Source: Parabacteroides chongii
Lineage (GTDB): Bacteria; Bacteroidota; Bacteroidia; Bacteroidales; Tannerellaceae
DNA length: 64,000 nucleotides
Assembly: GCF_029581355.1 (NCBI RefSeq)
Contig: NZ_CP120849.1
Span: 2,636,501 to 2,700,500 of the forward strand
Direction of reading: 5' to 3'
Notes under the pieces: generated by a model
What the model saw: the letters and a program-made list of their open reading frames with translations, nothing else
Databases searched by the model: none
Told to the model about the DNA's origin: nothing
Program-made: the position numbers and the translations under genes
Shown here: positions 16,523 to 64,000 of the stretch, in pieces
Position numbering within the stretch: position 1 is the stretch's first letter
Layout of the letters: each line of letters starts with the position of its first letter

Positions 16523-16759
16523 ATGGAGGACAAAAAAAGAGAGATGTCTCCCTGGCGGCGTGCGTATGGTGTAACCGAATTCGCACAATTGTACTTTCCG
16601 GGTCAGACACCGGTGGTGGCTTATAAGCGCATGTGGGAATGGATACGAACCTCCCGTGGTCTCAAAGCAAAGCTCGAAGCGGCAGGATGGGTGAAATTTC
16701 AGAAATTGTACACCCCCAAGCAGGTAGCCGTATTGATCGATCACCTGGGCGAACCTTGA
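16523..16759 (+). CDS. DUF4248 family protein
   Basis: 78 residues. 'MSPWRRAYGVTEFAQLYFPGQTPVVAYKRMWEWI' and 'LKAKLEAAGWVKFQKLYTPKQVAVLIDHLG' match what I know of DUF4248, a small Bacteroidetes protein with a helix-turn-helix-like helical make-up that is nearly always beside a VirE_N/DUF3987 gene. Function unknown; DNA binding is plausible. It precedes the DUF3987 gene by 26 bp, so both are probably on one transcript. Confidence 0.85.
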   Translation: MEDKKREMSPWRRAYGVTEFAQLYFPGQTPVVAYKRMWEWIRTSRGLKAKLEAAGWVKFQKLYTPKQVAVLIDHLGEP

Positions 16760-16785
16760 CCAGGCGTAAATTTAATAAGAAATTC

Positions 16786-19182
16786 ATGAGTGAATTAAAA
16801 AAACAGCAAGTGGAATGCTCATTCTATGAATCGGCATTCAAGACAGCGGTCTGCGTAACCGTCTCGTTGGAGAGTTACCTGGCCGGAGTAAAGAACGGAA
16901 AATACGAGGCTCTCGTCGAACGGCTGCGCAGCTACAAGGCAGCCGGGGATACGGAGCGTGCGGACAACGCCAAGAAAAAACTACCCCTGCTCGTTGCCGG
17001 AGGCGTGATGGAAGGTGGCCGTAAGCTGGAGCACATGGTGCGCTACAGCCGGTGTATAACGATCGACCTGGACGATGTGCCGGGCGACCCTCTCGATTTC
17101 CTGCGTCGGGCTGAGACGCTCGATTATGTGAAGGCGGGGCATATCAGTCCTTCCGGAACGGGAAATAAACTCTTCGTATTGGTAGACAGTTCGCTGCCGG
17201 ACCATGTGACGGCATTCGGATATGTCAGCCGGATGATCGAACGCGACCTGCCCGGCGTAAAAGTCGACGCTTCGGGCAAGGATGCCAACCGCAGCTGTTT
17301 TGTCAGTTACGACCCGGATGCCTTCTACAAGGAGGTTGCGCAGGTAGTGCACGTCCCGGTCGACGAGCTGAAAGCCGAAAAACAACCGGCTGCTCCGGTT
17401 GCCCGTGCCATCAGACGTGGCGGCGGACAACCGGGCGCAAATGCCTTGTCGAACTACATCGACCGCTTTGAGTCGGATAACCCGTTTGCCGACGGTGGCC
17501 GCCACAGCTATCTGGTGCGACTGACTTCGGCGCTGAACAGTGCCGGTTTTGCGGAGTATGAAGTGGAAACCGAATGTCTGCGTCGCTACTGCGAACCGGG
17601 ATTCGGGGAGAAAGAAATCCGGGGAATCGTGGCGGACATTTACCGTCGTTACCGCAGTGCGCACGGCAGTAATCCATATGATCCGTCGAAAGGCGAGAAG
17701 CCGGGAGCTTGTCTCAAAAATCTCAAAAATCTCTCTCCGGCTCCTGATTTTTCCACTCCGGAGGATGATGGCTCTATGGGCTTTGATATTGAAGCCGAAG
17801 ATGCCCGTTTACCCCACTTCGGGAGAGACCTTTTCGACCGTCTTCCGAAGCTCCTCGCGGACGCGGTGGCACCGGCCGGCGACGATACGGAATTTGACCT
17901 GATGCTGCTTGCCGGACTGACCGTTTGCAGCACCGCCTTGCCTGGCGTGACCGGCAATTTGAAGGACGAACCGTATGCCCCGCCGTTTTATACCCTGCTG
18001 ATCGGTCCTTCGGGCAGCGGCAAGGGATGTATCCATGCGATGCACAAGGTAGTGGAACCCTGGCAACGATACGTGGCTGACATGTCGCGCCATGATGTGG
18101 AGCAGTACAAAAAGGAGAAGGAGACCTACGACACGTACAAGTTCCAGCAGCGTTACGGCAAGAAGAAGACCACCGCGGGGCCAGTTCCCACGGAGCCGAA
18201 GCCGGTCTTCCTCAAACAGCTGCACATGAGCGGCTACACCACGACGGCGCGTATGATCGAACAGTTGCATATCAACGACCATTATGCTTCGTTGATGTTT
18301 GAGACGGAGTTGGAGTCGGTCACTGTCACTCTTACGCAGGATTTCGGCGGGTATGGGTATCTTTTGAATCAGATATTCCATCACGAAACGATCAGTAGCT
18401 CGTCGAAGACGAACGGTTCTTTCCTGGTGCGGCGTCCTATGATGGGTCTGTTGGCTACCGGTACGCCGGGCATGCTGGCGCAGCTGGTGCCTTCTACCGA
18501 AAGCGGATTGTTCAGTCGCCTGTTGATTTACAAAATCACGGGTCATACGGAATATCGTCCGCTCACCTCGTCGGACAATGTGCGTCAGAATGCGTTCTAT
18601 TATGACGGGCTGGGGTTGCGCCTGCTCGATATAGCGATTCATTTGGACAAGTCGCCGACCTTTGTCAGCTTTTCCGACAAACAGCGCAAGCGGCTGGATC
18701 GTTATTTCAAACGCGAATATTATAATGTACGCGTGTTCAATAATAATGACGTGGCTTCGGTGGTGCTTCGTCATCGCCTGATAATCTTCCGTATGGCGAT
18801 GGTGCTGACAGCCTTGCGCAAGGGTGAAAGCCTGAGTACGGATGCGCATATCGAGATTTCGGATGAAGACTTCGAAACGGCTTTCCACATCGGCACCCGT
18901 ACGTTGCAGCATTCGCTCCTGATCAGCACTTCGATGAAGCATAGCAAGGCGGAGCATCACTATAAGATTCCGACCATTCAGTTGGATTTGTTTGCCGACA
19001 TGTCGGACGAGTTCCGGATCACCGAGATACTCGAATTGGCGGGCGTCCGCGGAATCAGCCGTGCAACGGTGTATCGGATGCTGAAAAAGGCGCAGGAATA
19101 CAAGCTATTGATCTCAGTAGGAGCGGGTTGCTATCGCAAGACGGAAGAGGGTAAGAATGTAAAAAATTCAGAAACGGATTAG
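16786..19182 (+). CDS. VirE_N (BT4734-like) / DUF3987 primase-helicase-like protein
   Basis: 798 residues from the ATG at 16786; the longest frame starts 51 codons earlier inside the DUF4248 gene. Order of parts: BT4734/VirE_N domain (about 10-210, with 'CITIDLDDVPGD', 'GHISPSGTGNKLFVLVD' and 'DASGKDANRSCFVSYDP', resembling primase-polymerase folds); a PriCT-like helical part (about 230-300); a DUF3987 ATPase-like domain with a P-loop 'LLIGPSGSGKG' near residue 405; and a C-terminal winged-helix-like part ('ISRATVYRMLKKAQEYKLL'). This combination suggests replication-primase ancestry as in mobile elements. No integrase or other mobility gene is nearby. Function in the chromosome is unknown. 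Confidence 0.85.
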   Translation: MSELKKQQVECSFYESAFKTAVCVTVSLESYLAGVKNGKYEALVERLRSYKAAGDTERADNAKKKLPLLVAGGVMEGGRKLEHMVRYSRCITIDLDDVPGDPLDFLRRAETLDYVKAGHISPSGTGNKLFVLVDSSLPDHVTAFGYVSRMIERDLPGVKVDASGKDANRSCFVSYDPDAFYKEVAQVVHVPVDELKAEKQPAAPVARAIRRGGGQPGANALSNYIDRFESDNPFADGGRHSYLVRLTSALNSAGFAEYEVETECLRRYCEPGFGEKEIRGIVADIYRRYRSAHGSNPYDPSKGEKPGACLKNLKNLSPAPDFSTPEDDGSMGFDIEAEDARLPHFGRDLFDRLPKLLADAVAPAGDDTEFDLMLLAGLTVCSTALPGVTGNLKDEPYAPPFYTLLIGPSGSGKGCIHAMHKVVEPWQRYVADMSRHDVEQYKKEKETYDTYKFQQRYGKKKTTAGPVPTEPKPVFLKQLHMSGYTTTARMIEQLHINDHYASLMFETELESVTVTLTQDFGGYGYLLNQIFHHETISSSSKTNGSFLVRRPMMGLLATGTPGMLAQLVPSTESGLFSRLLIYKITGHTEYRPLTSSDNVRQNAFYYDGLGLRLLDIAIHLDKSPTFVSFSDKQRKRLDRYFKREYYNVRVFNNNDVASVVLRHRLIIFRMAMVLTALRKGESLSTDAHIEISDEDFETAFHIGTRTLQHSLLISTSMKHSKAEHHYKIPTIQLDLFADMSDEFRITEILELAGVRGISRATVYRMLKKAQEYKLLISVGAGCYRKTEEGKNVKNSETD

Positions 19183-19395
19183 AGATTTTTGAGATAATTG
19201 AGACAAATGAGTAAATTTGCCCTCGAAACCGTTCTTTTTCTGTTGAGTAGTTATCGACTCTTAAATGCCTAAGCATCCGCGACTTAACGGGTAGGCATCC
19301 GTTCGGAGGGTTTTGCCTGAAAAGGGATAAACTCACTGAATACTAAAATGGCTTGTAGAGTATGATTCTTATTATCTAGAAACGCGAAAATCTGT

Positions 19396-19425
19396 GACGA
19401 GAAAAAACGTACCTTTTTTCTCGTC
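19396..19425. repeat. Left inverted repeat of inverton 1
   Basis: 30 bp. Itself a perfect dyad: arms GACGAGAAAAAA and TTTTTTCTCGTC around the 6-bp centre CGTACC. Confidence 0.88.
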
Positions 19426-19427
19426 AG

Positions 19428-19457
19428 CAAAGGTACTATACTTTTTTAAATCGCCAA
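19428..19457 (-). promoter_or_regulatory. Inverton 1 promoter, currently pointing away from the gene
   Basis: On the minus strand TTGG (plus 19454-19457), 18 bp, TACCTTTG (plus 19428-19435). The box ends 2 bp from the left repeat, so after inversion transcription would start inside the right repeat. Confidence 0.75.
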
Positions 19458-19568
19458 TTATTTTGCTAAATATTTTTCCTGATCTATATCCTTTCTTATC
19501 AGATAGATATAAAACTCTGTACGAAAATCCCCCTTTTCTGAATGTAAGCTAAAGGAGCGCAAAAACGT

Positions 19569-19598
19569 GACGAGAAAAAAGGTACGTTTTCGCTAGTC
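19569..19598. repeat. Right inverted repeat of inverton 1
   Basis: 30 bp; inner arm GACGAGAAAAAA, centre GGTACG, degenerate outer arm TTTTCGCTAGTC. Reverse complement matches the left repeat at 27/30 positions. Confidence 0.88.
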
Positions 19599-19644
19599 AT
19601 TTAGACATTAATTAACACTATTATTAATATTAAATTTATTGATT

Positions 19645-22600
19645 ATGAACAAAAAGTTTTCTACGCTTGTGGCCAGTTTGTTGCTGGCTGGTGCTTGGAT
19701 GACAATGGATGCAGCCGTTGTGAGGGTGAAACCTGCGATCGGTGGCAAGTATGTTGTTGGTATAGCTGGTGAGGCAGAAGGAGAGGTGAGTGCTTGGACT
19801 GGTACTGACATGACTTTGGGTAATGCTGCTACAGTGGATAGTGAAGATGATATGGCTTTCGAGTTGAAGGCTGTTGAAGGTAAAGAAGGGGTTTTTTATC
19901 TGAAAAATGCTGATAACTTTCTTTGTTTTGACTCAGACGGAGAAGGGTACTTGGCATGGAACGAAACTTCTAAATCTAAAATAGAATTCAAGGTTAACGG
20001 TGGCGGACTGGAGTACGTTGGTCTTGAAGAAGGTACTGCAACTTTTTCAGGTAAACTATTGATTGAAGTAGGAGAAACAGGTAGCACCGTACGGTTGCCG
20101 TACGATGGATATGTAAAGCCTGCAAATACAAAAGCCCTTGAATTCTTTGTTTACAACGATGACGTAACGTTTGCTGAAGAAACTCTTGAGTTGCAGGATG
20201 AAGCCAAAACAGGTGAATACTACGTTATCGCTGCTACAGACGAACAGATTTTGACAGACGACGGTGAAGGTAATGTTACTGCCGTTGAAATGACAGAAGA
20301 TGAAGCTGAGCTGGACAACGTACTGTGGACAATCACAACAGGTAAGGCTGCTGACGGTACTACAATTACTTACAAATTAACTAACAAGAAAAGTGGTAAG
20401 TCTTTGGTAATTGAAAACCGTGATAACTTCATTGTTGCAGGTTCTGCTGCACGCTTCACTTTAGGTGTGGGTAACGATCAGTTGCTGGGTGTTAATGGCG
20501 ATGCTTTGGAAGTTAATGTAACAGCAGCCAACTTCGGTGTCTACAAATCACCGGTTGTTAAATTGAACTCTACTAAGCTGAACGATATGTTGAGCGAAGG
20601 TTTCAACATGACCATCAAGAAAACTGCAGCAGGAAAAGAAACTATCGAAGGCCTTGAAGCATTCGCTGGTGACTTGGTAGCTACTCAGAATGACAAAACT
20701 CGTTTCCAAATCAAAAATGGCGAGAAATACATTGCTTTGAACAAAACAGGATGGGATGCAGACAATACTGGTGTTGCACAGAGAAAGACTAAGTTTGTCT
20801 TGACTGATAAAGTGGCTGATGCTTGTTGGTTTGAATTCACCCAGTATGCAGGGACAGCTAGTGAATTGGTGAAAGAAGTAACTGTTTATGAAAAAGAAGA
20901 TGCGACTGAAATGTATGGGAAGCTGTTTATCTCTTCATTGGAAGGTAAACATGTTTTGACTGTTACTCCTGAATTGTATGAATATGAGACCCAGAAGGAA
21001 ACATTGCCGTACATCACTTTGGGCGCTGACAATATCGTTAAACCGGAAGAATTCTTGAAGAACGGTTTCGCTGTTATCAAACAGTTGAACGAAGATGTAG
21101 ACATGTTCGTTGTTGCAACAACTTGTGACAATTCAATAGCATTGGCTGAATCAGTAGTCAACGACGTAGAAAAACAATGGGCTGTTTCTTACGATGTAGA
21201 GAAGAAAGTTTATAAGATGGTGAACCGTGAAAATACAGCTGTTGAAAAAGAAGTTTCTTACACTCTGTTGCGTGAAAACGGTGACAAGAAAGACAACATC
21301 TATGTATATAATGGTACCGAATACGAAATCACATTCGTACCGGTAGACGCAAGCAGTAAATACTACATGTACTTGAGCGAAGGTACAGATAAGAACGATC
21401 CTGACTTGGCTGAAAAGTCATTCGTAATGTCTTACTGGTCTACAGTATTCAACGGTTATGCTAACGTAGCTATCAACGACAAAGATTGGGCATTCATCGA
21501 TACGAAAGCTGTACAGGCTGAATTTACTGCTACAGCAGTTGATACAGTGGCAGCTAAAACGTTGATCAACTACTACGATGCAACTAAGAAAGAATGGCAG
21601 AAGAACGAACCTGTTCTGAAAGCTCCGGTTTACGAGTTTACTGTAGGTGACTTGGATTTCGGTTTGAATAAAGATGGCAAGTTCGCTTTATTGGATGATG
21701 AAGCTACAGCAATGGCTGTCCGTGTTGCCGGCGAACACTTCAACTTGGCTAAAGCTAAAGATATTGAAGGAAAGAACACTGCTAAATGGGATGGTAAAGT
21801 ATATGTAGGTAACAACGACTCTTACATGTATTCTGTAAACTGCTTGTATGACGACAACAAGAACACATTGTTCATGGTAGCTGACAACAACCGTCCGGAA
21901 TACCGTCGTCTGGGTAAGACAGTGAAAGATGGTTATAACGACATGGAAGGTGACTTGAACATCTTGAAGTTCTTCCGTACAAATGATGAAAACCAGTTCT
22001 TGTATGAAAATACAATGAACCGCAACGCTAACAACGGTGCTGCTAGCCTGAACTTCTTAGGTGAAACTAACTTGGCTGACAAGCCTGCTAACGCCCAGCT
22101 GCCGTTCCTGGTGGATACTGCTTACATCCGCAACGAAACACGTAAACCGTTGTATCTGCTGTCTGTACGTAATGAATTTGTAAAAGGAAAAGAAGCTGTT
22201 GCATGTCCGGATCACGGATTCGATCCGAACTGTCCGCACTGGACTGCAGGAACTCCTGACCATCGCACTGGTGCTTACCTGGTAGCTTTGGACGATTCTA
22301 TCGCTACTTATGCACAGGCTAAATATCAGGGTAACATTCGTTTGGCATTCGTTGATGCTACACACGTAGGCGACTCTCTGATCATCGCAAGCTCTAAGTA
22401 TACTGGTACAAAGACTGCTAAGAACGATACATTGAGCTTCGTTAAGAAAGACGGCAAACAGAGAATGAACGCTGCTACATTCGCATTCAAGTTGGTTGAC
22501 CGTGCTGTTGATCCTGAAGGCGACAAGGCTACATTCATTATCGAAGCTGTTCCGGCTAGTGAAAATGGTCCTGCACGTTATGTACGTGTTCACAACACAG

Positions 22601-22899
22601 TACCTGTATTGGTAGACAATATTGCTGAAGCTGCAACATTCGAAGTAATGGCTGCTGCTGAAGGCGAAACAGCAACTTCTAACGAAGGTATCGAAGCAAC
22701 AGGTGTATCAGTTGTTGCAACTAACGGTGCCGTAATCGTTAAGGGTGCTGAAGGCAAGAACGTTGTAATCACTAACGTACTTGGCCAGCAGGTTGCTAAC
22801 ACAGTCGTTTCTTCTTCTGAAGCATCAATCGCAGCTCCTGCCGGTATGGTTGTAGTAGCTGTTGAAGGCGAAGCCGCTGTAAAAGCAATCGTAAAATAA
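19645..22899 (+). CDS. Large secreted surface (S-layer-like) protein 1, phase-variable
   Basis: 1084 residues from the ATG at 19645; the longest frame adds a TTG-Ile before it. Starts with a signal peptide, MNKKFSTLVASLLLAGAW, nearly shared with the genes at 23777 and 61413. The rest is acidic and beta-rich, with spaced sections such as 'LNDMLSEGFNMTIK', 'NRPEYRRLGK' and 'CPDHGFDPNCPHW'. The C-terminal ~60 residues ('IVKGAEGKNVVITNVLGQQ', then 'VVAVEGEAAVKAIVK') resemble a Bacteroidetes C-terminal secretion/sorting-type domain (DUF6383-like in Parabacteroides). Several Asp-Ser/Thr-hydrophobic triplets (DTV, DTA, DSL, DTL, DSI) fit the Bacteroides O-glycosylation motif. Family assignment to P. 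distasonis S-layer glycoproteins is from layout and recollection. Appears OFF in this orientation. Confidence 0.85.
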   Translation: MNKKFSTLVASLLLAGAWMTMDAAVVRVKPAIGGKYVVGIAGEAEGEVSAWTGTDMTLGNAATVDSEDDMAFELKAVEGKEGVFYLKNADNFLCFDSDGEGYLAWNETSKSKIEFKVNGGGLEYVGLEEGTATFSGKLLIEVGETGSTVRLPYDGYVKPANTKALEFFVYNDDVTFAEETLELQDEAKTGEYYVIAATDEQILTDDGEGNVTAVEMTEDEAELDNVLWTITTGKAADGTTITYKLTNKKSGKSLVIENRDNFIVAGSAARFTLGVGNDQLLGVNGDALEVNVTAANFGVYKSPVVKLNSTKLNDMLSEGFNMTIKKTAAGKETIEGLEAFAGDLVATQNDKTRFQIKNGEKYIALNKTGWDADNTGVAQRKTKFVLTDKVADACWFEFTQYAGTASELVKEVTVYEKEDATEMYGKLFISSLEGKHVLTVTPELYEYETQKETLPYITLGADNIVKPEEFLKNGFAVIKQLNEDVDMFVVATTCDNSIALAESVVNDVEKQWAVSYDVEKKVYKMVNRENTAVEKEVSYTLLRENGDKKDNIYVYNGTEYEITFVPVDASSKYYMYLSEGTDKNDPDLAEKSFVMSYWSTVFNGYANVAINDKDWAFIDTKAVQAEFTATAVDTVAAKTLINYYDATKKEWQKNEPVLKAPVYEFTVGDLDFGLNKDGKFALLDDEATAMAVRVAGEHFNLAKAKDIEGKNTAKWDGKVYVGNNDSYMYSVNCLYDDNKNTLFMVADNNRPEYRRLGKTVKDGYNDMEGDLNILKFFRTNDENQFLYENTMNRNANNGAASLNFLGETNLADKPANAQLPFLVDTAYIRNETRKPLYLLSVRNEFVKGKEAVACPDHGFDPNCPHWTAGTPDHRTGAYLVALDDSIATYAQAKYQGNIRLAFVDATHVGDSLIIASSKYTGTKTAKNDTLSFVKKDGKQRMNAATFAFKLVDRAVDPEGDKATFIIEAVPASENGPARYVRVHNTVPVLVDNIAEAATFEVMAAAEGETATSNEGIEATGVSVVATNGAVIVKGAEGKNVVITNVLGQQVANTVVSSSEASIAAPAGMVVVAVEGEAAVKAIVK

Positions 22900-23247: not shown

Positions 23248-23493
23248 TTGACTTAATTTAAGTAAAGAAATTTTGGGGTATAAGGTTTATAGATCGTGTA
23301 ATTGAGTTTATTCATTAGTGAAGAAAAAGTGGTAGAATCCGGCTTTTTTTAGTTTTTGTGCCTTATTTCATGAAAAAAACTCTTTTGAGGGTATTTGTGC
23401 TCGAACACACAATGTTTAAAACACTAAAATTTACGTGATGAAAAACATGGTTTTATATTTTGAAAAACAGTAAGTTATGTAGTGAATTGTAGT

Positions 23494-23523
23494 GACTAAA
23501 GAAAACGTCCCTTTTTTCTCGTC
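23494..23523. repeat. Left inverted repeat of inverton 2
   Basis: 30 bp: degenerate outer arm GACTAAAGAAAA, centre CGTCCC, inner arm TTTTTTCTCGTC. Confidence 0.88.
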
Positions 23524-23524
23524 A

Positions 23525-23554
23525 CAAAAATACGACAATATTTTTAACCGACAA
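23525..23554 (-). promoter_or_regulatory. Inverton 2 promoter, currently pointing away from the gene
   Basis: Minus strand TTGT (plus 23551-23554), 18 bp, TATTTTTG (plus 23525-23532), one base inside the left repeat. Confidence 0.75.
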
Positions 23555-23666
23555 TCATTTAACCAATCTTTTTTATTGTTTATATGTCCTTTCTTATCAG
23601 GATGATAGAAAAACGAGGACGAAGTTATCTCTTTTTTACATGAAATCAAAACCGAACCCAGAAAAT

Positions 23667-23696
23667 GACGAGAAAAAAGGGACGTTTAAATTCGTC
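23667..23696. repeat. Right inverted repeat of inverton 2
   Basis: 30 bp: inner arm GACGAGAAAAAA, centre GGGACG, outer arm TTTAAATTCGTC. Confidence 0.88.
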
Positions 23697-23776
23697 ATTT
23701 GACGATTATCAATGTCTGAGAGGAATTTATAATTCGAATTTTAGTATAGTTTTATTATTAATTAAATTTATTGATT

Positions 23777-26700
23777 ATGAACAAAAAGTTTTCTACGTTG
23801 ATGGCTGTCCTATTGACAGCTGGCGCATGGACGACACTGGATGCTGAAGTTGTAGTGGTTGATGCCCCTGCGATTGGTAAATCTTATGTGTTGGGTTCGG
23901 CAGCACCCGGTGGCAATGATGTAACAAATCTAGTAGTTACAGCTGGTACAGTTACTGCCAACGGAACTGTTGCTGCTTTTGGTCAGGAATGGACTTTAGA
24001 AGCTGTTACTGGTTCTACTACTAATTTTTATTTGAAGAATAGTGCAGGAAGCTATTTGCATGAAGGTACTGGTGCCGATGAGACACAAGTAATAGCAAAT
24101 AAAACTGATGCTACTATTGTACAGTTCAAGTTGAGCGATAACAAAATTGAAGTAGCAGTGGCTGGTACTAGTGGCCTTAATACGGTAGGTCATTTCTTAG
24201 TTGCAAATTCTACAGATTTAAAGACGGCGGCTAGTACGAATGAAATTATCACGTTAGTAAACAAGGCTGAATCTTCATTGGTCTTATCAGAGGGTAGTAT
24301 AGATCAAACTGTAGACTTAGTTGCAAGTCCGGAATTTGGTAAAGATGTGTATTATTTCATCGGGTCTAGCATCACTGCAGCTAATGTGCTGTTCTACGAC
24401 AAAGCTGATAAAACAACAAAACCGAAGCTTGCTTCTGCTCTGACTAGTGCTGAAGTTGATGCTGCTTTATGGAAAATAATAAAAACAACAAAAACTGTAG
24501 GCAGTGAGAAAGTAGACTATTATCAGTTTGTCAATAAAGCAGATCCTAGCATAACTGCAGCTATTAGTAATACTTCTGAGTTCTATGCTAATACAGCTTA
24601 TGCGAATGGTTTTACATTGTTTATCTCTAAAGATGCAGCTGTAACTGACGCTTTTGCTCCTGGCATTGCTACTGCAGCTGCTACTTTCGGTATCTACAAT
24701 GCTACATTAGAAGCATTTAAAGGTGAAACATTGAATGATTTGCTGAGAAATGGTTTCAACCTGACAGTTAAAGTGACTGAAAAGGGTAACGAAACTCTTA
24801 ATGATGTAGCTGCTTTTTCTGGTAAACTGACTGCTGTTAAAGATCTAACTGGTGCGGCTGTGACTACTGAACCTGCTTATTGTCTGAAATCAGGTAACAA
24901 ATTCCTAGTATTGAATACAAAGAAATCTAACAGTAATGGTGATGGTGTATTTGAACTGGTAGAAACTGTGACTGCTGATCATTTGGCATATTTCAGTGTT
25001 ATGCGGAGCAATGCTTATACAGCTACAAATGTTGTTGCTGAATTGCATGTAGCAGCTGCAGCAGATATGCTTAATGCAAAGAAAGCGGTTGTACATAAAA
25101 TCAATAATGCTTATTTCCTGACAGCTAAGGCTACTTTGGGAACAGATGATACACTTCCGTATCTGAGCCTGACATCTTCTAATATCGCTGATTACAAGCA
25201 GTTCCTGGGTAAATTCATGAACATTACTTTTGTAAGTGATGAAACTGAAACTGCTTCGGATATTGCATACAAGAAGAATGGTGTTTTAGCAACTGCTGAT
25301 TATACAGGTAAGGAAGCTGACTATGTAAACAAGAGCACTGTATTATTGACTTCTCCGGAAGCTCAGTGGGCTGTGACTGCTGTTGATGTAAATAAAGCGA
25401 ATAATCCGATGACTTTGACAAACCGCGAAAGTGGTGAAACTGTTACAAATGTTATCTTACGCGAAACTACAGTAAGTAATGAATACCTTGTTGAGTCTGC
25501 TTCTGTAACAAATATGAAAGACGATATTATCAAAATTGCATTTGTAACGAACCGTACTAAGTACGATGGTTTCAGAACTGCAACTGTAAACGAACTGAGA
25601 AATCAGGTATTCAATATCGGTCAGTATCATAACGAAACTGGTAATACAGCTGGTTACTGGGCAGAAAATCATCAGAGCAATGGTACTCACCAGTTAGGTG
25701 TTACTAATAATATTGCAAATGCTGCTGAATGGACTTTGCGCTTGGATAAGAAGTTGAAGAGCGGTAGTGAAATCTCTGAAGTAGATACAGTATTCATCCT
25801 GACTCCGATGGCTACTATACAGAACGGTAAGTTGGTACAAGGTAATGTAGGTGATAAAGATGTAGTTGTCGATACATTGGCAGTTCTTCCGTATCAGATT
25901 CAGAACAAAGCGAACTTGGAATATGTAAGACTGGAAAGTGCTACTAACCTGGATTATTATGTATGTCACGAAGTGGCTGATACTAGAGTTGAAGATCGTT
26001 TCGCCTTGAAGGCAAAACCTAACGGTACATATAATATTGTTACTCTACCTAATCGTCAAAATAATGTTTCTCAAGACGCTCTCGCTGCTGATAAGATATA
26101 TGTAGGTAACAGTAACCAGTGGGGTTCTTTGAAACCGACGGAAACTTATAAAGCTGACGATAACTCTTTGATGGTTCTGAACTTGATCGACAGACCTGAA
26201 TACCGCAAGGTTGCAAAAGCATGGGGTGACGTAGTGAAGATTTATCGCGAAGAATATCCGACAGAAGTATTGTTTGAAAAAGCTGACGTTAAGTCTGTTG
26301 TAGACAATGATACTTTGAGCTTCCTGAATGTGAACAATAGTGTAACTGGTGCAAATCCTGCATTGTTCATCGATACAGCTTATGTAAACCGTGTGGATGC
26401 AGACGGTATCGCTAATACTTGCTACCAGTATCTGCTGGGTCTGAGTGTGAAGGAAGAAACGACAACACATTGTGACTATAATCCGGAACACAATACACCT
26501 GAATGGCTGGAAGCTAACGGTGGTCCGTGCTCTGATGCGAAATCGTTCACAGCATTGAAGGGTCGTTACCTGATCAACCTGATCGATACGGCATATGCTT
26601 ATAAACAGGAACATATGCACAATAATCCGTATATCAATATGATAGAAGCTGACGAAAACCTGGCTAAATTGTCATTCGTAGAAGGTTATCATAAAGATGA

Positions 26701-27211
26701 TACGCTGTATATTACTCGTAAGGGTGGTGAAGTCGTTAAATTGGGTATGGATTCTCCTGACTTCAATGTGGCTAAGTTTGCTTTCCGTTATGTAGATAAC
26801 GATGCAAATTCATTCAAGATCCAGACACAGTACAAAGATTATAGTGCACCTACTAAGGATCTGTTTGAAAAATCTGCAACTAACGAAGGTTACTTACGTT
26901 GGGTGAATGGTACTGTTGTTGTAACTAATAAGTTTACACACGGTGAAACATTCAACATGGAAGAAGCTTACAACGGCAATCCGGTTGCTAACGAACAGGA
27001 ACCTTCTGTAACTACATTCACTGTTATCTCAGGTAACGGTTCAGTAACAATCAAGGGTGCTGCCGGTAAGACTGCTGTGATCAGCAATGTACTGGGTCAG
27101 ACTGTTGCTAGCACGGTTCTGTCTTCTGACGAAGCTCAGATCAACGTTCCTGCTGGTGTAGTAGTTGTAGCTGTTGAAGGCGAAGCTGCTGTTAAAGCAA
27201 TTGTAAAATAA
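23777..27211 (+). CDS. Large secreted surface (S-layer-like) protein 2, phase-variable
   Basis: 1144 residues from the ATG at 23777. Signal peptide MNKKFSTLMAVLLTAGAW is near-identical to that of surface protein 1, and the C-terminus ('TIKGAAGKTAVISNVLGQT', then 'VVAVEGEAAVKAIVK') is close to it as well, whereas the middle is diverged and mostly alignable through short blocks ('LNDLLRNGFNLTVK', 'LIDRPEYRKVAK', 'CDYNPEHNTPEW'). This is the usual picture of a surface-antigen family with conserved export ends and variable exposed body. Paralogue of 19645-22899, probably by tandem duplication. Preceded by an invertible promoter that reads the wrong way here, so it is predicted OFF. No catalytic motif is visible. 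Confidence 0.85.
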   Translation: MNKKFSTLMAVLLTAGAWTTLDAEVVVVDAPAIGKSYVLGSAAPGGNDVTNLVVTAGTVTANGTVAAFGQEWTLEAVTGSTTNFYLKNSAGSYLHEGTGADETQVIANKTDATIVQFKLSDNKIEVAVAGTSGLNTVGHFLVANSTDLKTAASTNEIITLVNKAESSLVLSEGSIDQTVDLVASPEFGKDVYYFIGSSITAANVLFYDKADKTTKPKLASALTSAEVDAALWKIIKTTKTVGSEKVDYYQFVNKADPSITAAISNTSEFYANTAYANGFTLFISKDAAVTDAFAPGIATAAATFGIYNATLEAFKGETLNDLLRNGFNLTVKVTEKGNETLNDVAAFSGKLTAVKDLTGAAVTTEPAYCLKSGNKFLVLNTKKSNSNGDGVFELVETVTADHLAYFSVMRSNAYTATNVVAELHVAAAADMLNAKKAVVHKINNAYFLTAKATLGTDDTLPYLSLTSSNIADYKQFLGKFMNITFVSDETETASDIAYKKNGVLATADYTGKEADYVNKSTVLLTSPEAQWAVTAVDVNKANNPMTLTNRESGETVTNVILRETTVSNEYLVESASVTNMKDDIIKIAFVTNRTKYDGFRTATVNELRNQVFNIGQYHNETGNTAGYWAENHQSNGTHQLGVTNNIANAAEWTLRLDKKLKSGSEISEVDTVFILTPMATIQNGKLVQGNVGDKDVVVDTLAVLPYQIQNKANLEYVRLESATNLDYYVCHEVADTRVEDRFALKAKPNGTYNIVTLPNRQNNVSQDALAADKIYVGNSNQWGSLKPTETYKADDNSLMVLNLIDRPEYRKVAKAWGDVVKIYREEYPTEVLFEKADVKSVVDNDTLSFLNVNNSVTGANPALFIDTAYVNRVDADGIANTCYQYLLGLSVKEETTTHCDYNPEHNTPEWLEANGGPCSDAKSFTALKGRYLINLIDTAYAYKQEHMHNNPYINMIEADENLAKLSFVEGYHKDDTLYITRKGGEVVKLGMDSPDFNVAKFAFRYVDNDANSFKIQTQYKDYSAPTKDLFEKSATNEGYLRWVNGTVVVTNKFTHGETFNMEEAYNGNPVANEQEPSVTTFTVISGNGSVTIKGAAGKTAVISNVLGQTVASTVLSSDEAQINVPAGVVVVAVEGEAAVKAIVK

Positions 27212-60531: not shown

Positions 60532-61088
60532 TTAAATTAATACCAGCCAAAACGAATTTTCATCCCGAACAATGAATCATTCTATGATTATCGAACGAAA
60601 GGAGAACAATTATCAAATGAAAGAAGCATATATGTGCTTTATTCGTTTGATATATATCAAACGCAAAGACGTTCGAATACAAATCCGATTTTCAGTTTTT
60701 ACCTTTACTTTGTAATAACCGTTATTATTACGGAAACCTAAAATAATATTGGATTATCATACATAGCTTAGGGGGATAAGTCCAAAGATTATTATAGAAT
60801 AACCAAACGGCTTTCAAGAAAAATATCAACTATTTTTATAGTTGTACAATCGCGTACATTATATATAAAGCAACACCTCTGAGAATACAAAACAGATATT
60901 AAAACTTAAGATGCTATTATACAGTGATTTACAATTGCTGAAAAGAATGTGGTGAAAATCAAGCTTAACTTTCAGTATTACAGTATTTTATCCTTAAATA
61001 AACTGGAATGTTAAAATTGTGGTAAAATGAGGTGTGAAATGATATTTAATAGATTGGTATATAATGAATTAAAGTGTTAAAATAGAAT
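60532..61088. other. 557-bp non-coding stretch before inverton 3
   Basis: AT-rich; no supported gene. It contains a 20-bp perfect palindrome at 60644-60663 and otherwise nothing I can identify. Confidence 0.7.
60644..60663. repeat. 20-bp perfect palindrome
   Basis: CGTTTGATAT followed by its exact complement. Possible operator, no gene immediately adjacent. Confidence 0.6.
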
Positions 61089-61118
61089 GGCTAATTTAAA
61101 CGATCCTTTTTTCTAGTC
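61089..61118. repeat. Left inverted repeat of inverton 3
   Basis: 30 bp: degenerate outer arm GGCTAATTTAAA, centre CGATCC, inner arm TTTTTTCTAGTC. Confidence 0.86.
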
Positions 61119-61119
61119 A

Positions 61120-61149
61120 CAAAGGTACAACTAGTTTTTAAACCTGCAA
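61120..61149 (-). promoter_or_regulatory. Inverton 3 promoter, currently pointing away from the gene
   Basis: Minus strand TTGC (plus 61146-61149), 18 bp, TACCTTTG (plus 61120-61127), one base inside the left repeat. Confidence 0.75.
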
Positions 61150-61259
61150 TTCTTTTCAAATTTATTTTTGCAAATATATAGTCTTTCTTATCAACTACAT
61201 AACAAAGTTTGTATGAAATTATCACTTTTCAGTATAAAATAAAAATTCACTCAAAAAAT

Positions 61260-61289
61260 GACTAGAAAAAAGGATCGATAAAACTAGTC
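61260..61289. repeat. Right inverted repeat of inverton 3
   Basis: 30 bp: inner arm GACTAGAAAAAA, centre GGATCG, outer arm ATAAAACTAGTC. Confidence 0.86.
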
Positions 61290-61412
61290 ATTTTACTAAA
61301 CACCTTTTAACAAACACAAAATTAGGGGAAGAAAGGGATAAAGGTGTAGAGTAAGATTCACAAGATTTATGACGCTATTTTAACACTATTATTAATATTA
61401 AATTAAAGAATT

Positions 61413-64000
61413 ATGAACAAAAAGTTTTCTACATTAGTAGCTACACTGTTGGCTTCGGGTGGATTGTTCTACGCTGTAGACGCAATGATCTTACCGGCAA
61501 ACGACGGGGTAGCTAGAACGTATGTGACAACTAGAACTGGCTCGGATGCAGCCCAGTCGACGGAAAAAATCCTTTCTTGTAATCTCAAAAATGTGGATGC
61601 ATTTAAGACTGCATGGACGTTGGTGGATGCTTCTTCTGACACACCATCGGTTACTGATGGAGATGGCGGTCAAGAAGCAGCCAAATCCTACAATTTGCAA
61701 GTAGCCGGTGCTGAAGGATGGTTCCTGTGTGAAAATGGCATTCAGTATGTAGGTAAGACAGAAACTCAAGAGGCAGAAGGAAATGAAACTGCAATACCTT
61801 TGGTAATTACTGTGGGTGAAGAAGGTGCAGTAAATCTCTACATTGCTGAAGAAGATGGTTCTTTTACAGTAAAGACTGTGAATGCTACTGATGCAGTAGC
61901 ACTTGAAGGAGATGGAGACAAGACTACTCCTGCAGCGAATGCATTCTTGTATACAGATGAAAGCACTCCTTATACAGAAAAAAGTGTAGAGAATCTAAGT
62001 ATACTTTCTTCTGGTGAGGGTGATGGTAATGTTGCATTAGTAACTAAAAACGAAAGCGAAGACGATGTTGAAATTCAGTCCGAAGATGTTACTTTTGACA
62101 TTATTGTAGACGTAGAAATCGTTAAGTCAGAACTGGCAGAGAATGCTCCGGGTGCAGATGTTCCGGGCATGGGTGATGTTGCTGTTTCTGTTGCAGAAGA
62201 CGGTACAATAACTGTTACCAGCGATGTAACAGCTATTCCTGCCCCGACTACTGTTGCTATTGGAGACAATGTTCTTTCTGTTCAAAACGGAAAAGTAGTT
62301 TATTTGACAGAAGATGATGCTGAAAAAGCAGATTCATGGGTATTGGTAGATAGCAAATACAAGAATGTCACTCTTGAAAAACTGGGTGAAACAAAGATCT
62401 GGCTGCAGGCAACTGCAGGTCTTAAATCAACAGATGCTGCTCCTTTTGTTTTGGTAGAGAAAGCTAAAGCTTCTACATTTACACTAAAACAAGGTGAAAA
62501 AGCAACTGTTGTGACTGACGGAAACTCAGTAAATATATCTAGCGTTGCTTTAAAAACAACCGGTGTATCTACGGCTGCCACTATTGATGATGCCAATAAA
62601 GATATTCTTTTGACTTCTGTTGCATCCGGAGATGTAGTGCTTTTGGGTAACGGTACTCAATTTGCAGGTGAAGACGGATCACTCGAAAAGGCAACTCTTT
62701 GGGTAGTAAGCAAGACTGCAACGACAACTGACGGAACTTATCGTTATTCTTTCAAAAAGAAAGATGCCAATACTTATTTCACAGTTGAAGGCGAAACCGA
62801 ATTTACTGCGGAAGACTATAAAGGAAGCTTTGCTTTAAAAGCTACAAATGGAAAATATGTAAGTATTGGAGAGGATGGAACACCTTCTTTGGTTGATCCA
62901 TCTACTCCTTCTGCTTTGTTTAGCATTCCTGCAGATGCAAAGGCATTCACAGCTAAACAAATCCTTTCAGACTTCGGTACACTGACAAGCTTCAACCTGT
63001 CTTTGTGGGATGAAAAGGATGGCGTTTCTACATTGGTTCAGAACCCGTTTGAAGATGCTGATTTGGTTCCGGTATGTTACAACAGTACTAATAAGACGTT
63101 CACTCCGATCACGGTAGATAATGCTAGCTCATTTACTGATACTGAGCTGAAAACTTTCTTACTGAAGAAAGGCAACAGCTACATCGTAGTTGAAACAACT
63201 AAAGATTCTGAATGGAGTAACATTAACTCTGAGTTGATCGCTGGTGGTTACAAGTTCGTAACACTGAGCGAGAAAGCGATGGCTGAAGTGATGAAAAACG
63301 GTAAATGGAAAGATGCCACTTATGCTCCTTACTTCACATTCAACTTCGATGCAAACAAAGTAGCAAACGGTGAAGCAACAGCTAAAACTCCTATCTATTC
63401 AATTCAGGTATCTGATTATAGTAAAACGAGTGTAGGTGATGTTTCTACATTTACTATCAAGACTGGTGCACAAGCAGGTACTTATCTGACAACTTCTAGT
63501 AAACAAGCTTATTGGGCATATGCTGAATTCAGTGCAAACAACGCTGTACGCGGTGATTCTGACAAGGATTACAATCCGCTGAACATGAAGTATGTGAACA
63601 TTACGTTTGTAAATCATTCGGATGTAACATACAAAGATGGTACTAAGACTATCAAATTGAATGGTAAGGTTTTGGGTGCGGAAGCTAAACCAGCTGATGC
63701 TGCTAACTTCCTGTTCGATAAACCGGAAGGACAGTGGGCTGTTCAAATGACTGCTGCTACAGGTGATTTGTCTAAGGGACAATCATTGGGTGACAATGTT
63801 TACGGCTTTACTTTCGTAAACCGTGAAAACAATAACGAAAAGTATGCTGTAAGCAAGATATATTACCTGGGTAACAACAAATATGCTGTAGCTTATACCG
63901 GTGGTTCTGCTAAATTTGCTCAATGGAACGGTTCAGCTTTGCTTCGCGATACAATCGCAATCACTCCGGTTGAAACTGCTTTGAAAAATAACGCTGTTCA
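61413..64000 (+). CDS. Large secreted surface (S-layer-like) protein 3, phase-variable, incomplete at window edge
   Basis: The frame is open from the ATG at 61413 to the right edge (862 codons seen), so the C-terminus is missing. It starts MNKKFSTLVATLLASGG, sharing the signal peptide of surface proteins 1 and 2, and the 5' leader (TAACACTATTATTAATATTA) is identical to that before gene 1. The body is acidic, Thr/Ser/Ala/Val-rich and beta-like, with blocks parallel to the other two ('FNLSLWDEKDG', 'YKFVTLSEKAMAEV', 'GFTFVNRENNNEKY'). The N-terminal 130 residues appear unique. I place it in the same family. It has its own invertible promoter region, predicted OFF. Confidence 0.82.
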   Translation, partial: MNKKFSTLVATLLASGGLFYAVDAMILPANDGVARTYVTTRTGSDAAQSTEKILSCNLKNVDAFKTAWTLVDASSDTPSVTDGDGGQEAAKSYNLQVAGAEGWFLCENGIQYVGKTETQEAEGNETAIPLVITVGEEGAVNLYIAEEDGSFTVKTVNATDAVALEGDGDKTTPAANAFLYTDESTPYTEKSVENLSILSSGEGDGNVALVTKNESEDDVEIQSEDVTFDIIVDVEIVKSELAENAPGADVPGMGDVAVSVAEDGTITVTSDVTAIPAPTTVAIGDNVLSVQNGKVVYLTEDDAEKADSWVLVDSKYKNVTLEKLGETKIWLQATAGLKSTDAAPFVLVEKAKASTFTLKQGEKATVVTDGNSVNISSVALKTTGVSTAATIDDANKDILLTSVASGDVVLLGNGTQFAGEDGSLEKATLWVVSKTATTTDGTYRYSFKKKDANTYFTVEGETEFTAEDYKGSFALKATNGKYVSIGEDGTPSLVDPSTPSALFSIPADAKAFTAKQILSDFGTLTSFNLSLWDEKDGVSTLVQNPFEDADLVPVCYNSTNKTFTPITVDNASSFTDTELKTFLLKKGNSYIVVETTKDSEWSNINSELIAGGYKFVTLSEKAMAEVMKNGKWKDATYAPYFTFNFDANKVANGEATAKTPIYSIQVSDYSKTSVGDVSTFTIKTGAQAGTYLTTSSKQAYWAYAEFSANNAVRGDSDKDYNPLNMKYVNITFVNHSDVTYKDGTKTIKLNGKVLGAEAKPADAANFLFDKPEGQWAVQMTAATGDLSKGQSLGDNVYGFTFVNRENNNEKYAVSKIYYLGNNKYAVAYTGGSAKFAQWNGSALLRDTIAITPVETALKNNAV

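Follow-up and report, generated by a model that had tools for sequence, protein, structure and literature searches.

The segment at 19395-19599 is, with a probability of about 0.88, an invertible-promoter cassette that serves an S-layer-type protein with a DUF6383 domain (surface protein 1, SP1) and is turned by an unlinked serine invertase of the Mpi class. It lies in the window, the whole 64-kb stretch of Parabacteroides DNA analysed here, and is one of three such cassettes there. The anatomy fits the invertible promoter originally predicted at this place, and homologous cassettes exist in both orientations in related genomes.

In the proposed mechanism, each 32-nt arm of the cassette would form a dyad bound by a dimer of a small, trans-acting Mpi-class serine invertase encoded elsewhere. 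The two dyads would come together in a synapse, looping out about 173 bp; both strands would be cut around the two central bases, and the halves would rotate and rejoin, leaving the 141-nt interior reversed. In the orientation shown the promoter would fire away from SP1 (OFF). After a flip, transcription would be expected to begin within the right arm or immediately past it, about 70-80 nt ahead of the ATG, and the gene would be ON, presumably leading to display of the protein at the surface. The same enzyme, or its paralogues, may serve a set of cassettes found across the genus.

Anatomy of the cassette and its sisters in the window

The arms of the SP1 cassette are 32 nt each and complementary at 29 of 32 positions. 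The 30-bp repeats of the original prediction (27 of 30 paired, enclosing 143 bp) are the same repeats less one base at each end. The single promoter placed beside the left repeat was also found: the interior holds exactly one match to TTG-N18-21-TANNTTTG, running from 19457 to 19428 of the minus strand, and one base separates it from the left arm. Its full sequence, TTGGCGATTTAAAAAAGTATAGTACCTTTG, is of the Bacteroidota type. In the window copy it faces away from the gene, and a computed flip moves the end of the -7 box to 19566, 78 nt ahead of the ATG, in agreement with the predicted distance of about 80 bp.

Table 1. Features of the three cassettes and the genes behind them (window coordinates).
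Feature	Position	Strand	Remarks
SP1 cassette, left inverted-repeat arm	19395..19426	+	dyad centred on TA, the proposed crossover
SP1 cassette, invertible interior	19427..19567	n/a	141 nt
SP1 cassette, promoter TTG-N19-TACCTTTG	19428..19457	minus	points left, OFF
SP1 cassette, conserved element CTTTCTTATC (GATAAGAAAG on promoter strand)	19491-19500		upstream of promoter; similar in other cassettes
SP1 cassette, right inverted-repeat arm	19568..19599	+	central dinucleotide TA, as in left arm
Short AT-rich leader to ATG	19600..19644	+	last part common to sister gene 2
SP1	19645..22899	+	1084 aa, open frame; C-terminal DUF6383 (Pfam PF19910, residues 1010-1083)
Cassette 2, left arm	23493..23524	+	central dinucleotide TC
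Cassette 2, promoter TTG-N19-TATTTTTG	23525..23554	minus	OFF
Cassette 2, right arm	23666..23697	+	
Surface protein 2 (SP2)	23777..27211	+	1144 aa; C-terminal DUF6383
Cassette 3, left arm	61088..61119	+	central dinucleotide AT
Cassette 3, promoter TTG-N19-TACCTTTG	61120..61149	minus	OFF
Cassette 3, right arm	61259..61290	+	
Surface protein 3	61413..64000	+	862 aa read, open to window end; C-terminus, with any DUF6383, beyond window

Pairs of arms matching at 28 or more of 32 positions with a spacing of 60-300 nt occur three times in the whole 64 kb, namely at the SP1 cassette and at two alike, and no further repeats of this kind are present in the window. Five simulated windows (first-order Markov) contain none at 28/32. 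With up to three mismatches allowed, the half-site motif is matched six times, against 0.03 matches expected from shuffles.

The two sister cassettes (23493-23697 and 61088-61290), absent from the original prediction, precede paralogues of SP1. Their promoters (TTG-N19-TANNTTTG) abut the left arm and point left, and all three cassettes of the window are OFF. At the DNA level SP1 and SP2 share a 5' unit (67% over 389 columns) made up of cassette, leader and signal-peptide start, and a 3' unit (71% over 367 columns) made up of the C-terminus and nearly 190 nt past the stop; the alignable pieces of the two proteins are 29-30% identical. In the profile scan DUF6383 was the one domain recognised in the product. 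The surface location of DUF6383 proteins is probable from the family and from a signal-like N-terminus. A search of genome contigs with SP1 found no relative, and a search of viral contigs with the right flank returned nothing.

A promoter-like TTG-N20-TAAATTTG beginning at 19189, outside the cassette, could transcribe SP1 in either orientation. When tested against shuffles, matches of this sort occur near the chance level (3 of 73 cassettes, with 1.6 expected). Immediately upstream of the cassette lies a DUF3987/BT4734-like gene (16633-19182). Similar DNA is found beside several other cassettes, in P. gordonii (C1:1441167), P. goldsteinii (C84:161815) and P. timonensis (C8:3020925), as if it travelled together with them.

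Crossover sites and candidate recombinases across the genus

The genomes compared most closely are those of P. gordonii (G001; L002), P. goldsteinii (G002; L003), a Parabacteroides metagenome-assembled genome (MAG; G003; L004) and P. timonensis (G038). The PrmC protein of the window is 93% identical to that of P. faecis and 85% identical to those of P. gordonii and P. goldsteinii. A strict cassette pattern is present in 4 of 38 genomes of the genus. A wider pattern, applied to 12 chosen genomes, was matched at 45 places and at 16 in a reversed control; the two counts are almost the same in G004 (3 and 3) and G016 (4 and 5). Judged by eye, arms are recognisable at 40 of these 45 places and missing at 5, and the central dinucleotides of the two arms are equal at all 40 of the former and unequal at all 5 of the latter. 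Of the three large genomes, that of P. gordonii gave 21 cassettes, that of P. timonensis 20 and that of P. goldsteinii 17, the last figure excluding an artefact at L137.

Cassettes of the same type also stand before genes whose products have N-termini unlike those of S-layer-type proteins (L124-L127, L134, L143, L144 and L156), and the same recombination sites seem to serve loci beyond S-layer-type genes. At L137 in P. goldsteinii (C11:119576-119938) three recombination sites follow one another, two of them separated by a run of N, and adjoin a cassette (L138) whose interior is nearly identical. Sites in direct orientation at this locus could also delete DNA. A separate set of genes (L208, L210, L211, L218, L219 and L224) encodes proteins with MNKKFSTL-type starts behind a different common upstream region, in which inspection by eye showed TTATTCC ... 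GGAATAA together with an inverted repeat that is longer but imperfect. No cassette of the SP1 kind lies upstream of these six.

Serine recombinases make a staggered cut of 2 bp. The arms were compared in 74 measured pairs from the window, P. faecis (L001) and the four genomes named above, after a 75th pair had been dropped as a direct-repeat artefact of the three-site locus. The two central bases of the dyad differ between loci and in none of the 74 pairs within a locus; in 2000 shuffles of arms between loci, central mismatches averaged 48 and numbered at least 37 every time. Among the 74 pairs, the two arms disagree in 4 at column 14 and in 6 at column 19, the columns on either side of the central four bases, and in 32-51 at the outer columns 24-26. 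A second search, in which pairing was blind to the central bases, found them equal in 93 of 94 pairs, with one artefact omitted; shuffling within genomes gave 38.5 equal pairs on average and 52 at most. The single unequal pair is mis-registered, the same locus being equal in the first measurement. All of these counts include orthologues and paralogues more than once. Across loci the central dinucleotides include AA, AT, AC, GT, GA, TT and TA. A centre that is free between loci yet locked within each pair is what a serine invertase would require, and it points to a 2-bp crossover.

The best surviving alternative, itself very improbable, is inversion by a tyrosine recombinase (Tsr type) whose overlap would be the complete 6-bp core. 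Excerpts of PMC12118408 and PMC3090145 name tyrosine invertases as the drivers of many invertons in Bacteroidales, and the 6-bp core is mostly equal within a locus. Against this reading, columns 14 and 19 differ within some pairs and the central two bases never do. No integrase occurs among the 10 proteins scanned with profiles (SP1, SP2 and eight neighbours, flanking genes included), and the repeats published for loci with adjacent integrases look different.

Serine recombinases (PF00239) are encoded in 35 of 38 genomes of the genus, and three small ones are common to P. gordonii, P. goldsteinii and P. timonensis: A (200 aa), B (198 aa) and C (214 aa). A passes the NCBI model for 'master DNA invertase Mpi' with 323 bits against a cut-off of 272; B and C match that model below the cut-off (180 and 188). 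Close relatives of A carry that name in Parabacteroides records. The nearest solved structures to the recombinases are distant entries called DNA-invertase (4m6f and 3uj3). None of A, B and C is encoded in the 64-kb window. In the three genomes that share them, none adjoins a half-site with at most one mismatch, the closest seen lying about 15 kb away in P. gordonii, which fits a master enzyme acting in trans. Families A, B and C or their relatives occur in genomes with cassettes and in others. Judging by these relatives, the enzyme acting at the SP1 cassette would be a candidate invertase of the Mpi class.

The spacing of the arms, measured centre to centre, clusters near 142, 152, 163, 173 and 185 bp and falls on helical turns. 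Clustering of 93 interiors at 80% identity left 56 representatives, and the 24 of these that are not in the main class kept the same phase at a period of 10.5 bp (R 0.56; -2.71 vs -2.99 rad). This test was devised after the data had been seen, and periods of 10 to 12 bp fit about equally well.

Orientation of cassettes and loci without arms

L162 in P. timonensis and L129 in P. goldsteinii are orthologous, having the same flanks and the same gene. As assembled they are identical at 319 of 414 columns, and with one interior reversed at 377 of 397; the P. timonensis copy is ON and that of P. goldsteinii OFF. Two paralogues of a single genome (L276 and L274 in G017) are 97% identical when one is flipped and 44% identical unflipped. 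The orientation differences in these two pairs therefore indicate that the segment turns round in this family. The SP1 cassette itself very probably flips, switching SP1 on and off; we infer this inversion from sequence comparison, the single orientation known for the locus being OFF.

Among 73 S-layer-type cassettes, 68 are OFF, 3 are ON and 2 are unclear (68 of the 71 readable ones are OFF), and no genome has more than one ON. This tally is a subset: from eight additional genomes 40 loci were taken, of which a stricter rule retained 23. The unclear cases are the artefact at the three-site locus L137 and L130, which is mis-registered here and OFF in the other measurement. L172 reads OFF with its gene on the correct side, the opposite choice giving ON, and L175, which reads ON at a contig start with no gene in view, was left out. 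For L176 the gene side first taken is probably wrong: its flanks and interior run parallel to those of L153 and L141, whose gene lies on the opposite side from that first choice. Two cassettes with a visible gene that do not belong to the S-layer-type set, L124 and L259, read ON. With 68 OFF to 3 ON, many copies could perhaps flip rarely. The contig ends of the MAG that fall just upstream of S-layer-type ATGs were considered as breaks due to mixed orientation and rejected, as they lie in a leader repeated between genes.

Slightly less probable again than a tyrosine recombinase is decay, in which the sites are intact, inversion has been lost in this strain and SP1 is permanently silent. The sole copy seen is OFF, and proteins 99-100% identical to SP1 exist, with their upstream DNA outside the comparison. 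Yet the arms, their 2-bp centre and the reading frame of SP1 are all intact, and the OFF state alone is no sign of decay, because nearly all S-layer-type cassettes in related genomes are OFF too.

In each of the closely compared genomes at least one S-layer-type gene, at a place common to them (L284 in G001, L285 in G002, L286 in G038 and L287 in G003), has the same promoter and upstream element facing it. These loci are without arms (the best candidates reach 19-20 of 32, where SP1 reaches 29) and are here called locked ON. Of the 71 readable S-layer-type cassettes, 67 carry the upstream element, GATAAGAAA(G/A), and it turns with their promoter; of 17 readable cassettes that precede other genes, 1 carries it. 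In the locked-ON loci it starts 42-43 nt ahead of the TTG box. Inversion by Hin uses an enhancer bound by Fis. Because the conserved element of the SP1 cassette is kept in the locked-ON loci, which lack arms, a role in transcription is more likely for it than one as a recombination enhancer.

Least probable of all is that the repeats are fixed operators or hairpins rather than recombination sites and that the promoter serves a leftward transcript: the left arm of SP1 is by itself a near-perfect palindrome and 68 of 71 readable S-layer-type cassettes share one orientation, but two clean orientation differences between close homologues, the armless loci in which the same promoter points at the gene, and the helical spacing of the arms all argue against it.

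Known switches and the surface coat of Parabacteroides

The SP1 cassette is one of many such switches in the genus, and the kind is already known. The precedent cited in the original prediction exists: the title of a 2007 study by Fletcher et al., found in reference lists, reportedly concerns phase-variable surface glycoproteins of P. distasonis. Judged by that title, the likeness lies in the genus, a family of surface glycoproteins and phase-variable expression; the species of the window is closer to P. faecis than to P. distasonis. In a review table DgpA and DgpC are entered as S-layer glycoproteins, a presumed identity, and the accessible part of PMC5903667 records numerous inversion sites in P. 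distasonis on the basis of reads.

The repeats of B. fragilis were reportedly described as hin-like by Patrick in 2003. For that species it is established, according to passages of PMC5903667, PMC3090145 and PMC8375218, that master serine invertases act on promoters at scattered sites. There, the unlinked master serine invertase Mpi (FinA) acts on at least thirteen regions holding the promoters of scattered surface loci (PMC5903667, in part). The Mpi repeat, given as ARACGTTCGTN in an extract of PMC8375218, partly resembles the AACGNNCG centre of Parabacteroides cassettes. By eye, the SP1 arm AAACGTACCTT agrees with only 8 of its 10 specified letters, and relatives read AACGTACGTT and AACGTTCGTT. 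In contrast to the B. fragilis system, the targets in Parabacteroides are mostly single large surface proteins, and the arms are extended TGAC-N-AG-A6 dyads whose central dinucleotide varies by locus. In Salmonella, Hin is a small serine invertase that acts on paired 26-bp hix sites (PMC4817059, excerpt) and whose gene sits within its own invertible segment (PMC5903667, excerpt), whereas no invertase adjoins the SP1 cassette. A literature search returned no title or opening of an abstract on helical spacing or the central dinucleotide in Bacteroidales. No account in print of the locus-specific 2-bp centre, the helical spacing or the locked-ON site was found in listings, and in passages of the papers named here and of PMC11892184, from a literature collection that includes a minority of subscription papers.

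Between P. goldsteinii and P. timonensis the locked-ON locus is 94% identical in its flanks, 87% in the block of promoter and leader and 94% in the block at the 3' end of the gene, while the proteins are only 30% identical over 880 residues. The locus in P. gordonii has the same arrangement, with flanks at 84-87%; that of the MAG was compared in part, its contig starting 339 nt upstream and its frame reading 421 aa. Such a pattern suggests an expression site with turnover of the coding body. No near-identical body that could be a donor was found among the cassette genes at hand, which are mostly incomplete; we hypothesize that bodies are exchanged between the locked-ON site and silent copies. 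A third conserved S-layer-type gene (L288 in P. gordonii, L289 in P. goldsteinii and L290 in P. timonensis) has a fixed upstream region and proteins that are 84-94% identical.

A surface coat of two tiers, with silent genes controlled by invertons beside a locked-ON expression site that receives exchanged bodies, is a speculative and rather doubtful reading whose parts are to be taken jointly. In the first tier, each larger genome would keep a dozen or more silent S-layer-type genes behind Mpi-type invertons, nearly all of them OFF and at most one ON, with the 2-bp crossover code limiting exchange between loci. In the second, the body would be swapped between conserved blocks, with promoter, leader and signal peptide on one side and DUF6383 and the 3' block on the other, and the silent genes would be possible donors. 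If this reading were true, antigenic variation would draw both on the flipping of promoters and on the exchange of bodies at one fixed site of expression.

With the SP1 cassette comes a well-defined set of promoter inversions that spans the genus and lies in front of large surface proteins of gut Parabacteroides. Natural pairs of ON and OFF copies occur in this set, the crossover dinucleotide can be read from the sequence, and three invertases are candidates. Two questions become testable with it: whether the 2-bp centre stops the many sites of one enzyme from recombining together, and why nearly all copies are OFF while one locus is locked ON.
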